DNA of 64,000 nt, taken from Bacteroides clarus YIT 12056 (lineage in GTDB: Bacteria; Bacteroidota; Bacteroidia; Bacteroidales; Bacteroidaceae). This document shows, one piece after another, positions 3,087 to 56,455 of the stretch. Positions within the stretch are counted from its first letter, which is position 1. Every line of letters begins with the position of its first letter. The notes under the pieces were generated by a model, which was given only the letters and a program-made list of their open reading frames with translations, ran no database searches and was not told the origin of the DNA. A program made the position numbers and the translations under genes. The DNA lies in NCBI RefSeq assembly GCF_900129655.1, contig NZ_FQWK01000001.1:124001-188000 (forward strand), read 5' to 3'.

Positions 3087-3239
3087 AGCTCTTGGTGTGG
3101 AACTTTCAGTACCAACGGCTGAAACCGGAAATACCAACGGTTGGTACGCCTGATACCAACGGTTGGAATCTTCAGTACCAACGCTTGAAACTGCCGGTAC
3201 CAACCGTTGGTATTTCCGGTACCACGGGTTGGGAACTTA
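3087..3239. repeat. 22-bp-period palindromic array between the regulator and copA
   Basis: Six tandem units begin at 3109, 3131, 3153, 3175, 3197 and 3219, exactly 22 bp apart. The consensus is RTACCAACGGTTGGWA followed by about six variable bases. The core CCAAC-G-GTTGG is a palindrome. A weaker seventh unit (12 of 22 matches to the unit at 3153) starts at 3087. The open reading frames across it on both strands are repetitive by-products of the array and I do not call them genes. It lies between a TATCTTTG element at 3271 and the copA start, so it is probably transcribed as the copA 5' leader. Confidence 0.9.
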
Positions 3240-12767: not shown

Positions 12768-12867
12768 GTCTTGCGGAACGGATGGATTCGTCCCGCGGGA
12801 CAAAAAAAATCATCCCGTGAGATGGAATAATCCGTCTCACGGGATGATTTTTTTTATCTTACGGGAT
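12768..12867. repeat. 22-bp-period palindromic array, family RTCYYRYRRRAY, five units
   Basis: The 12-bp cores start at 12768, 12790, 12812, 12834 and 12856, exactly 22 bp apart. They are GTCTTGCGGAAC, GTCCCGCGGGAC, ATCCCGTGAGAT, GTCTCACGGGAT and ATCTTACGGGAT. Each core is close to a palindrome and neighbours are complementary. The same core and spacing occur at 30222-30321 and 56278-56377. It lies between the convergent tadA and alpha-galactosidase genes. Confidence 0.92.
12802..12855. terminator. bidirectional terminator formed by two array units
   Basis: A perfect 21-bp stem pairs 12802-12822 with 12835-12855 around a 12-nt loop. The outer eight pairs are A-T, giving a T-run on either strand. 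It can end both tadA and the convergent alpha-galactosidase transcript. Confidence 0.85.
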
Positions 12868-30183: not shown

Positions 30184-30221
30184 AGAGAGCGTTTTTTCCT
30201 GCTTACGGAACAGTTTATTTC

Positions 30222-30321
30222 ATCCCGCGAGACGGTTGTTTTTGTCTCGTGGGATGATTTTTTTTATCTCGTGAGATGAATATTTTTGTCTCGCAGGACG
30301 AATATTTTTGTCTCATAAGAC
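30222..30321. repeat. 22-bp-period palindromic array, family RTCYYRYRRRAY, five units
   Basis: Cores start at 30222, 30244, 30266, 30288 and 30310, exactly 22 bp apart: ATCCCGCGAGAC, GTCTCGTGGGAT, ATCTCGTGAGAT, GTCTCGCAGGAC and GTCTCATAAGAC. Units 1 and 2 form a 13-bp stem (30221-30233 with 30244-30256, one G-T) followed by eight Ts, a good terminator for the DUF2721 gene. The last unit overlaps the stop codon and final codons of the convergent protease gene. It shares its core with arrays at 12768 and 56278. Confidence 0.92.
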
Positions 30322-54984: not shown

Positions 54985-55752
54985 TTACTTCTCGTTGTGG
55001 CTGATTAATTCTTTGGCCAGCGCGATGTGGTTTTTGGCTCCGGTGGAGTCTGCGTCGTACAGGATGGTGGGAAGCCCGTAGCTGGGCGCTTCGCTCAGCT
55101 TTACGTTGCGCTGGATAACGGTGTTGAACACCAGTTCCTGGAAGTGGCGCTTTACTTCATCGTATATCTGGTTGGCCTGGCGCAGGCGTGAATCATACAT
55201 AGTCAGCAGGAATCCTTCGATTTCGAGTGCGGGGTTCAGCTTGGACTTGATGATTTTAATGGTGTTCAGCAGTTTGCTGATACCTTCCAGCGCGAAGTAT
55301 TCGGCCTGTACGGGGATGATAACCGAGTCGGCGGCCGTAAGCGCGTTGATGGTAATCAGCCCCAATGACGGTGAGCAATCTATCAGGATATAATCAAACT
55401 CTTCTCTCAGCGGGGCAAGCACTTCTTTCAGTATCTTTTCCCTGTTTTTAAGATTGAGCATTTCTATTTCGGCACCTACCAGATTGATGTGGGAGGAAAT
55501 AACCTTCAATGTATCAATCTCTGTGTCGTGAATAGCGTCGCGCACATCGGCACGGTCTATAATACATTCATAGATAGTACATTCCGCCTGCTTGATGTCC
55601 ACGCCCAACCCTGATGAGGCATTTGCCTGGGGGTCTGCGTCCACAACAAGAACTTTCTTTTCAAGCGTGGCGAGAGAAGCTGCGAGGTTAATGGTCGTTG
55701 TTGTTTTTCCTACACCACCTTTTTGATTTGCCAAAGCAATTATTTTTCCCAT
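54985..55752 (-). CDS. parA: chromosome-partitioning ATPase ParA (Soj)
   Basis: A 255-residue deviant Walker ATPase that moves ParB-DNA complexes apart. IALANQKGGVGKTTTTINLA is the Walker A' motif with the signature lysine. VVDADPQANASSGLG and YILIDCSPSLGLITINAL are the Walker A'-following and Walker B regions. The chromosomal Soj type has no N-terminal DNA-binding extension, as here. It is first in an operon of five genes. A possible TATATTTG promoter element lies at 55929-55936. Confidence 0.96.
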   Translation of the reverse strand: MGKIIALANQKGGVGKTTTTINLAASLATLEKKVLVVDADPQANASSGLGVDIKQAECTIYECIIDRADVRDAIHDTEIDTLKVISSHINLVGAEIEMLNLKNREKILKEVLAPLREEFDYILIDCSPSLGLITINALTAADSVIIPVQAEYFALEGISKLLNTIKIIKSKLNPALEIEGFLLTMYDSRLRQANQIYDEVKRHFQELVFNTVIQRNVKLSEAPSYGLPTILYDADSTGAKNHIALAKELISHNEK

Positions 55753-56127
55753 AATTTCAATGTTTATTGGCAGCGAAATAAGTGATAATTCCGAATAGCG
55801 CCTACTAAAAAAGAGAAAGATTGCAAAAACGGTTGAAAAGTCGCCTGTTTTGTTAATAACTCCCGGGCGTTTATTTCGGTTCTTCCCTATGAAAGTACGC
55901 TGGAGTACTCCTTCTCTGTGTTGGCAGGCAAATATACGTATTTATCTTGAAATGAAGCTGTTTTTTTGTCTCACTTGCGTAAGATTAAGATTTATTTCAA
56001 TGCGGGCGTCGCGCTGCGACGCGTTTTGTGCCGGCCTGTTTTGATGTACATCCAAACAAGTTTTCACTATAAGCAAATCTTTTTTTCAAGCGTATCAAAC
56101 CGGATTATCATCGTAGGAAAATACAGG
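55753..56127. other. gene-free region upstream of parA
   Basis: No convincing gene is seen. The stretch is AT-rich with a TATATTTG element at 55929-55936 on the minus strand (TAnnTTTG match) that may serve parA with a leader of about 170 nt. The short reading frames here lack coding character. I see no parS, DnaA box cluster or hairpin of note. Confidence 0.5.
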
Positions 56128-56193
56128 GTCTGTCCGGGCGAAACGCGCTGTCTGCCCGAGGTGAACGCATAGTCTGTCCGGGTACGACAGACG
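56128..56193. repeat. 22-bp-period array, third core family, three units
   Basis: Units start at 56128, 56150 and 56172: GTCTGTCCGGGCGA, GTCTGCCCGAGGTG and GTCTGTCCGGGTAC, each followed by about eight variable bases. Spacing is exactly 22 bp, the same as the other arrays, but the core differs. A weak further unit may begin at 56194. Confidence 0.7.
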
Positions 56194-56226: not shown

Positions 56227-56455
56227 CCCCCTTCACCTTTCACATCCTTTTATTGATGCGGGATAGCGGGTGAAACCGTCTTGCGGGATGGATTAAACCG
56301 TCCCGCGAGACAAAAATATCCGTCCCGTGAGACGGATAAATCCATCCCGCGGAACGAAATCATTCATCCTGCGAGACAAATCAGAACGAAACGCTTTAAA
56401 GCCGGCCTTCACCCGCTATCCCGCATCAATAAAGGGATGTGAAAGGTGGAGGGGG
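56227..56455. repeat. 48-bp inverted repeats enclosing a 22-bp-period array
   Basis: The arms 56227-56274 and 56408-56455 match at 46 of 48 positions in inverted orientation. Between them are 133 bases holding five units with cores GTCTTGCGGGAT, GTCCCGCGAGAC, GTCCCGTGAGAC, ATCCCGCGGAAC and ATCCTGCGAGAC, starting at 56278, 56300, 56322, 56344 and 56366, exactly 22 bp apart. The core is the same family as at 12768 and 30222. No open reading frame or transposase is inside. It could be an invertible segment, a miniature element or a very large hairpin. Confidence 0.92.

Follow-up and report, generated by a model that had tools for sequence, protein, structure and literature searches.

The segment lying between the DUF456 protein gene and parA in Bacteroides clarus YIT 12056 (positions 56227-56455 of the window, i.e., of the whole stretch of 64,000 nucleotides that was analysed) is almost certainly a chromosomal, non-coding mosaic of dispersed palindromic repeats. 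In this mosaic two inverted arms enclose a row of five short units, and rows with about the same pitch, made of unrelated letters, occupy the corresponding gap in other species of the genus. The dispersal of the repeats and their pitch can be observed directly; as for their role, we infer a function at the boundary between transcription units, which is the most likely of several and is put forward tentatively.

The left arm (56227..56274, plus strand) is a copy of a dispersed repeat of ~48 bp able to form an imperfect hairpin (CCCCTTCACC...GGGTGAA), with its inner side toward the array, and the right arm (56408..56455, minus strand) is an inverted copy of the same repeat. The arms, 48 nt each, are complementary at 46/48 positions (96%) and leave 133 nt between them, where an array of five TCYYRYRRGA units without an assignable strand (56279..56376) is found; the units start at 56279, 56301, 56323, 56345, and 56367, every step being exactly 22 bp, and are separated by AT-rich spacers. 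ORFs of at least 80 aa are absent from the segment. The arms, their spacing, the five units, and the lack of a gene had all been described by a previous sequence-only reading of this DNA, which is confirmed in each of these respects. The same reading had placed the segment 5' of the par genes; indeed, it sits between the upstream DUF456 gene (PF04306; 56482..56961, minus strand) and the downstream parA (AAA_31/CbiA; 54985..55752, minus strand), which is followed by parB. The two genes have the same direction and are 729 bp apart in the window, and the distance from the end of the DUF456 gene is 27 bp to the right arm and ~105 bp to the array. The parS centromere was considered and rejected: the sequence TGTTTCACGTGAAACA, which we take to be the parS consensus, has no match in the window at two or fewer mismatches.

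The gap contains two further modules that had not been reported previously, that is, a second array with a 22-bp period (56128..56182, no strand; unit GTCTGTCCGGGCGAA..., ~2.5 copies) and a third, degenerate module (~56036..56122, no strand), whose ~22-bp register was set by eye and to which a palindrome at 56037-56058 belongs. Sequences resembling the third module were recognized by eye near arms or arrays at L021, L022, L026, L103, L317, and L321. The structure is not a product of chance: when a 24-nt piece of the arm was searched with up to three mismatches, the two arms were the only matches in the window (0.00 in shuffles). Other arrays can be seen in the window: one with a 22-bp period and a different dyad (ACCAACGGTTGGT; ~six units) lies at 3098-3237 between two co-directional genes, and two more TCYYRYRRGA arrays (12769-12866 and 30201-30320) are each located in a convergent gap, according to our own gene calls.

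Both the array and the arm are dispersed through the genome, a point absent from the sequence-only reading. A profile built from 16 five-unit, 22-bp arrays disclosed at least 31 array places in the B. clarus genome (G000), the one in the window included and usually with five units, and with a profile built from 15 arms the arm was matched at least 24 times, two matches being marginal (E 0.018 and 0.026); the additional arm copies for which the sequence-only reading had recommended looking do exist. These counts are lower bounds, since the candidates were scored only in part (150/593 for the arrays and 150/1863 for the arms). Within the genus, the array profile matched in 21/99 genomes (B. clarus included; 13 below 1e-6). 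Arm matches were found in 6/61 genomes (again including B. clarus), all of them belonging to the genus, and in 6/12 further Bacteroides genomes.

The unit of the array can be written as TC YY RY RR GA. Among the 510 inner letters of 85 units (17 of the 31 B. clarus arrays, without a per-unit filter) the purine/pyrimidine class is broken only three times, versus 189 variants of the transition type, and this pattern can be followed over ~16 bp before it weakens in the spacer. The step is 22 bp in 135/148, 87/89, 85/104, and 19/23 cases (71 arrays, seven genomes); the search model came from 22-bp arrays and the chain rule, which permitted steps of 20-24 bp, scored 22 slightly higher, so that the pitch inside these arrays is partly conditioned, whereas the 7-mer count, the 787-kb set, and the survey of the DUF456-parA gap, all described below, are free of this conditioning. 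Watson-Crick pairs between the two halves of the unit, counted in units filtered on the purine/pyrimidine pattern (9/10), are rarer than expected in B. clarus (208 vs. 247, sd 10.6) and in G034 (184 vs. 210, sd 6.4), and are not below expectation in B. gallinarum (G018). Since such pairing is not enriched and the purine/pyrimidine class is kept, what is retained is a purine/pyrimidine dyad and not a perfect palindrome. In B. clarus and G034 the two halves of the unit avoid perfect complementarity, and the G+C content per unit is narrow, being exactly 3 of 6 in 68/101 units of G034. No common unit register, orientation, or flanking sequence was found among the TCYYRYRRGA arrays (26, 17, and 11 arrays, irregular ones left out), which are thus strand-symmetric. 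In B. gallinarum one array (L248) reaches 19 units with an alternating 22/23-bp spacing, i.e., a 45-bp higher-order repeat, and its two strands, folded as RNA, give -132 and -52 kcal/mol.

The arms occur either as single copies or as inward-facing pairs, and pairs placed around repeats were observed in five genomes (G000, G001, G012, G021, and G138). Judged by eye, the repeats that they flank in G021, G012, and G001 are other than TCYYRYRRGA. G138, which at the DUF456-parA locus is identical to a B. propionicigenes record, harbors eight arm pairs by coordinates, with an interior different from TCYYRYRRGA; five of the eight were read, and several interiors look similar by eye. At three loci of this genome (L317, L319, and L321) a module of the TTTTGATGTACATCAAAA type is visible by eye outside one arm of the pair, suggesting that the mosaic extends beyond the arm-array-arm arrangement. 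In G124 (L276) a remnant of the arm was recognized by eye ahead of the array at a place where the arm model made no call.

The pitch was also compared at the DUF456-parA gap itself. From the window and 82 other loci tried, 21 distinct gaps were kept (loci lacking parA in the stretch, duplicates, and out-of-range cases being left out), and nine of these 21 contain an array with a period of 21-23 bp, versus an average of 0.05 regions in block shuffles; arrays of any other period between 14 and 40 bp were found in none of them. The 12 gaps without an array are mostly shorter ones. Seven unrelated unit types share this position: TCYYRYRRGA in B. clarus, a GTCGGAC-type unit in B. gallinarum, GGATRTTAACATCC in B. 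cutis, TTCGCAACCTCTGAA in B. fluxus, GAGATGTACATCTC in B. rodentium and one uncultured genome, a AAGATGGCATCTT-type unit in one MAG, and GTTTATTnnnAATAAAC in G179 and G124. The consensus unit is a significant inverted repeat in six of the nine array-bearing gaps; significance is not reached in B. gallinarum (P 0.053), B. cutis, and B. fluxus. The occurrence of different repeats with a spacing near 22 bases in the same gap of several related species suggests that the spacing is kept and the letters change.

This pitch is not restricted to one locus, since tandem arrays of ~22 bp are common in the intergenic DNA of Bacteroides. Exact 7-mers were counted, with neither a repeat finder nor an array model, in the intergenic DNA of 10 genomes (53 kb in total); they recur 105 times at a lag of 22 and 60 times at a lag of 44, while each of the remaining lags between 8 and 69 gives 3-30 recurrences, and no comparable peak exists in coding DNA. 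When 400 kb were taken at predetermined positions in 10 Bacteroides genomes consisting of a single contig, 17 tandem rows had period 22, three had 21, and one had 23, and none with period 22 was found in 50 kb of E. coli. From the 13 intergenic arrays of this 400-kb sample, roughly one to two hundred arrays of the 22-bp type are estimated to exist per genome. In a larger set (787 kb from Bacteroides and near relatives, some loci being labelled Muribaculaceae), 28, 10, and 4 non-overlapping arrays have period 22, 21, and 23, respectively, versus 0, 1, and 0 in 216 kb of other genomes, much of both sets consisting of the same region around DUF456; exactly 22 bp is the period of 28 out of the 44 arrays with a period of 20-24 bp. 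The other Bacteroidales families gave one tandem row of period 22 and four of period 23 in 319 kb, a sample with masked N for which tandem rows, and not lag counts, are usable. In one genome of another Bacteroidales family (L325), a 23-bp unit, CTCACAAGYTTGTCARTTTTTAY, forms two arrays, whose architecture is similar although they lie outside the genus and whose period is the one known from the BrickBuilt element. Between many loci the unit sequences are unrelated. With a loop allowed, 24% of the consensus units having a period of 21-23 (n = 42) are significant inverted repeats vs. 12% of those with other periods (n = 34), and the corresponding values in a stricter test are 21% and 0%.

As to the genes surrounding the arrays, 13 of 27 B. 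clarus arrays are located in convergent gaps, some of which they almost fill, versus 19 of 112 baseline gaps (P 0.001); context was computed for 28 of the 31 arrays, one of which was dropped as 'coding', and the baseline was drawn from the window and from stretches of 10 other genomes, with genes called by a home-made caller. No such enrichment exists in a wider set of 33 placed arrays (36 minus two 'coding' and one 'edge'), not independent of one another because several represent the same gap in related species; here 5 arrays are convergent, 21 co-directional, and 7 divergent, with a baseline of 19/68/25. Among the 21 co-directional arrays, nine of which represent the DUF456-parA gap, 16 are closer to the upstream stop codon (8/12 if this gap is set aside). 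A separate intrinsic terminator stands between the stop codon and the array on 12/37 sides, a mixed outcome that was counted neither for nor against any explanation.

Some of the arms may themselves be terminators. The unpaired arm C8:323868 lies after a gene that is followed by an equivalent arm in B. gallinarum, G138, and G179 as well, and in the direction of this gene each of the four arms shows a long stem and, behind it, a T-rich stretch, which is interrupted in B. gallinarum. Folded over 125-130 nt, they give -35.7 to -49.1 kcal/mol, and the predicted stable stem, the T-run after the stop codon, and the conservation of the arrangement point to C8:323868 as a candidate intrinsic (Rho-independent) terminator. 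The paired arms of the window differ from such terminators, since their own hairpins are weak (-11.8 and -15.2 kcal/mol) and a T-run directly after either arm is absent. Among nine unpaired arms of B. clarus, only two fold below -30 kcal/mol.

The presence of long inverted repeats around an octamer resembling a promoter had led the sequence-only reading to propose an invertible segment. The -7 consensus of Bacteroides promoters is TAnnTTTG, and the sole instance in the segment is TATTTTTG (56311..56318, minus strand), exactly where it had been indicated, within an AT-rich spacer of the array. The proposal that the inversion of this promoter would switch parA is nevertheless very improbable. 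A second promoter-like element, TATATTTG (55929..55936, minus strand), is located 5' of parA and outside the segment, and it was found 130-238 bp upstream of parA in all 16 orthologous loci examined (the window and 15 of 17 syntenic loci; in the remaining two, the element is present in L138 but could not be read in L131), being kept also in genomes without arms. Moreover, the array is strand-symmetric, so that its inversion would alter little; TAnnTTTG is rarer in 27 B. clarus arrays (2.0/kb) than in the intergenic DNA of the window (5.9/kb); and no recombinase was found among the five neighbouring proteins scanned (DUF456, ParA, ParB, SurE, and LpxB). An exact TTTG at the -33 spacing is missing both for the inner TATTTTTG and for TATATTTG (0/16), so that this rule does not favour the conserved element over the inner one and decides nothing; TATATTTG is a candidate parA promoter on the strength of its conservation, and the inner TATTTTTG was judged probably not to be a promoter. 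Another suggestion of the same reading, a giant hairpin in RNA, has more in its favour: a long hairpin might protect the DUF456 mRNA at its 3' end or process this end, or it might shield the parA leader. The near-complete complementarity of the arms and the abundance of B. clarus arrays in convergent gaps agree with it, and the 71 TCYYRYRRGA arrays fold on average much better than dinucleotide shuffles (mean z ~-8 on the forward and ~-7 on the reverse strand). Adjacent units are also more reverse-complementary than in shuffled order in B. clarus and weakly so in B. gallinarum (P 0.05), not so in G034, the units having been filtered as for the pairing counts. However, arrays mixed from the units of other arrays fold about equally well (real vs. 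mixed, -57.1 vs. -57.8 in G034 and -45.3 vs. -43.2 in B. gallinarum; -46.5 vs. -44.2 in B. clarus, marginal at P 0.05; 26, 18, and 11 arrays, irregular ones left out), so that the strong folding is due to the units, and in none of these three genomes does the asymmetry between strands exceed that of the mixed arrays. The hairpin is thus possible on energetic grounds, but the pairing is not strand-specific and is at most marginally specific to the arrays; the deficit of Watson-Crick pairs within the units of B. clarus and G034 (not of B. gallinarum) also speaks against it. At the gathering threshold Rfam has no family in the segment and only two tRNAs in the whole window, and below the threshold only families of the microRNA type appear in the gap. 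An RNA element is therefore considered unlikely, and the absence of strand-specific pairing, together with that of a shared register, orientation, and flanks, favours a strand-symmetric constraint acting at the DNA level.

The possibility that the segment is a miniature element carrying the arrays around, also raised by the sequence-only reading, stood in part: the arms are dispersed and do form pairs around repeats in five genomes, G138 with its eight pairs and partly similar interiors among them. According to this interpretation, the arm-array-arm structure would be a MITE, with the arms as terminal inverted repeats and a transposase provided in trans. The mean identity of 13 aligned arm pairs is 0.90, and the arms of one element are closer to each other than permuted partners (0.909 in B. 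clarus and 0.893 in G138, five pairs each, with 8/200 and 9/200 permutations, respectively, as good). Nevertheless, among the matches listed, 20/31 arrays have no arm called nearby and 8/24 arm matches have no array (by coordinates), and the missing common register, orientation, and flanks speak against copying of five-unit blocks for the TCYYRYRRGA arrays, although the G138 interiors look alike by eye. No target site duplication is obvious by eye at the arm-pair sites, and the orthologous DUF456-parA gap, whose flanks are too diverged, yielded no clean empty site. The Y1 transposase was considered as the mover and rejected: it is present in just 12/60 genomes of the genus and was not detected in three genomes that do carry arms or arrays (G001, G021, and G034), and the only match in B. 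clarus (L079, C14:268500-271500, RAYT-like) is flanked by inverted repeats that are other palindromes, not in the manner of a REP/RAYT pair. Farther out from this gene, tandem repeats of ~20 bp are visible by eye on both sides. Plasmid records have no match to the segment, and the only, weak match among phage records involves the array part alone (109 bp, 70.6%), on a faecal phage-labelled contig, unannotated and named 'Bacteriophage sp.' (L342, MT839078.1), which could be bacterial DNA. On the whole a mobile miniature element is unlikely. A different explanation dispenses with any function: short palindromes might promote tandem duplication during replication, the resulting arrays persisting as functionless by-products. 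The wholly different sequences in different species, the intergenic position of most arrays, the growth up to 19 units in B. gallinarum, and the fact that most consensus units are not significant inverted repeats are in line with this idea. On the other hand, a sharp 22-bp pitch in unrelated sequences, the near absence of transversions inside the TCYYRYRRGA unit, and the recurrence of arrays at one address are hard to obtain without a ruler or selection, and the by-product explanation is accordingly held to be quite unlikely.

The segment is thus most economically read as a boundary element, symmetric with respect to the strands and placed where the DUF456 unit ends. The arms would act as hairpins of the terminator type, and the array, at the DNA level and in either orientation, as a series of dyad sites that are spaced by two turns and hence exposed on one face of the helix; this series might be read by some protein or by a nucleoid factor, and the segment would in this way mark the end of the DUF456 unit or insulate it from the parA promoter. 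Several observations weigh against this reading: the orientation of the gaps in the wider array set, which follows the baseline; the location of some arrays in divergent promoter regions; the 12 of 21 DUF456-parA gaps in which no array was detected; the weak self-hairpins of the window's arms and the small share of strongly folding unpaired arms; and the three array-bearing gaps of nine whose units are not significant inverted repeats, together with the 24% of significant units over 42 arrays. One sequence-specific protein, moreover, does not account for the unrelated units within one genome. The explanation as a whole, that is, a mosaic placed at a transcription-unit boundary, having a boundary role and not being a switch, is therefore regarded as possible rather than probable. 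Extending it to the genus is a tentative proposal: there might exist a class of cis elements set by geometry and not by sequence, in which some three to five dyads follow one another every 22 bp at conserved intergenic addresses, with the letters of the dyads replaced wholesale between species. If this were true, either a machine would read the spacing or shape of the dyads, or sites and binding proteins would turn over together. REP, BOX, and MITEs are normally recognized by their sequence, whereas in this case, which concerns a dominant gut genus, it is the spacing and the address that are kept, not the sequence. If functional, the arrays would represent a large unannotated layer of chromosome organization or transcription-unit insulation, and would make it possible to test cleanly whether selection can act on the geometry of DNA alone. 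At the same time, inverted repeats in Bacteroides are by themselves no evidence of switches.

Known systems share some of these features; BrickBuilt, BOX, and REP/BIME come nearest, and each of them departs from the segment in some feature that was compared. The invertons of gut bacteria, as presented in the accessible part of their description, have inverted repeats of 10-40 nt and an enrichment of invertase genes nearby (PMC11892184); the inverted repeats around a short intergenic segment are common to both, and the differences are the 48-bp dispersed hairpins and the lack of a recombinase among the neighbours scanned here. In the available sections of PMC8040213, palindromic candidate RNAs of 80-132 bp, on both strands and mostly or only from Bacteroidetes, come close to our arrays; they are mainly called terminators or possible REPs, and those sections mention no 22-bp pitch. 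Judging from these descriptions, some of them may be arrays of the TCYYRYRRGA/22-bp kind. In the open-licence PMC papers searched, we found no account of Bacteroides arrays made of dyads at a 22-bp pitch.

The REP/BIME elements, and the CGTC-tagged REPs in particular, are likewise short extragenic palindromes, single or in inverted dimers, and the tag of this superfamily can be compared with the CRTC...GAYG of the units described here; according to the accessible part of PMC3733652, they are mostly head-head dimers and rarely grouped, in contrast with the fixed 22-bp tandem pitch and the species-specific sequences of the arrays. The CGTC tag, the 8-9 bp stem with a 4-5 nt loop, and the head-head dimers were not found here; the units are purine/pyrimidine dyads in tandem at 22 bp, whose Watson-Crick self-pairing is not enriched, and they are thus not CGTC-tagged REPs. 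The BOX element of Streptococcus pneumoniae is also modular, with modules of ~50 nt at its ends and a third module repeated in tandem between them, but, as far as the available portion of PMC3049150 goes, its two ends are different modules and the number of boxB varies, whereas in B. clarus both ends are one inverted repeat and most arrays are armless. Compared feature by feature, in some cases by eye, none of BrickBuilt, BOX, REP/CGTC, and the invertons fits the segment, within what the accessible parts of these sources describe.

The BrickBuilt MITE of Porphyromonas gingivalis consists of 1 to 22.8 copies of a 23-nt unit with short IS5-like ends, and the part of PMC4596501 considered reports no BLASTn match outside its species. 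The 23-nt unit and the ends of the GAGACC... type do not occur in the segment (for the ends, the arm consensus was set by eye against the TIRs shown in that part of PMC4596501). The arrays described here are made of 22-bp dyads, usually five, with 48-bp hairpin arms unlike the BrickBuilt ends and with a unit that changes between species at one address. Nevertheless, both belong to Bacteroidales, are intergenic, and combine tandem units of 22/23 nt with a leader and a tail carrying inverted-repeat ends, with predicted long stem-loops and with some copies devoid of leader or tail; on the basis of that same part of PMC4596501, BrickBuilt is the nearest known system in architecture.
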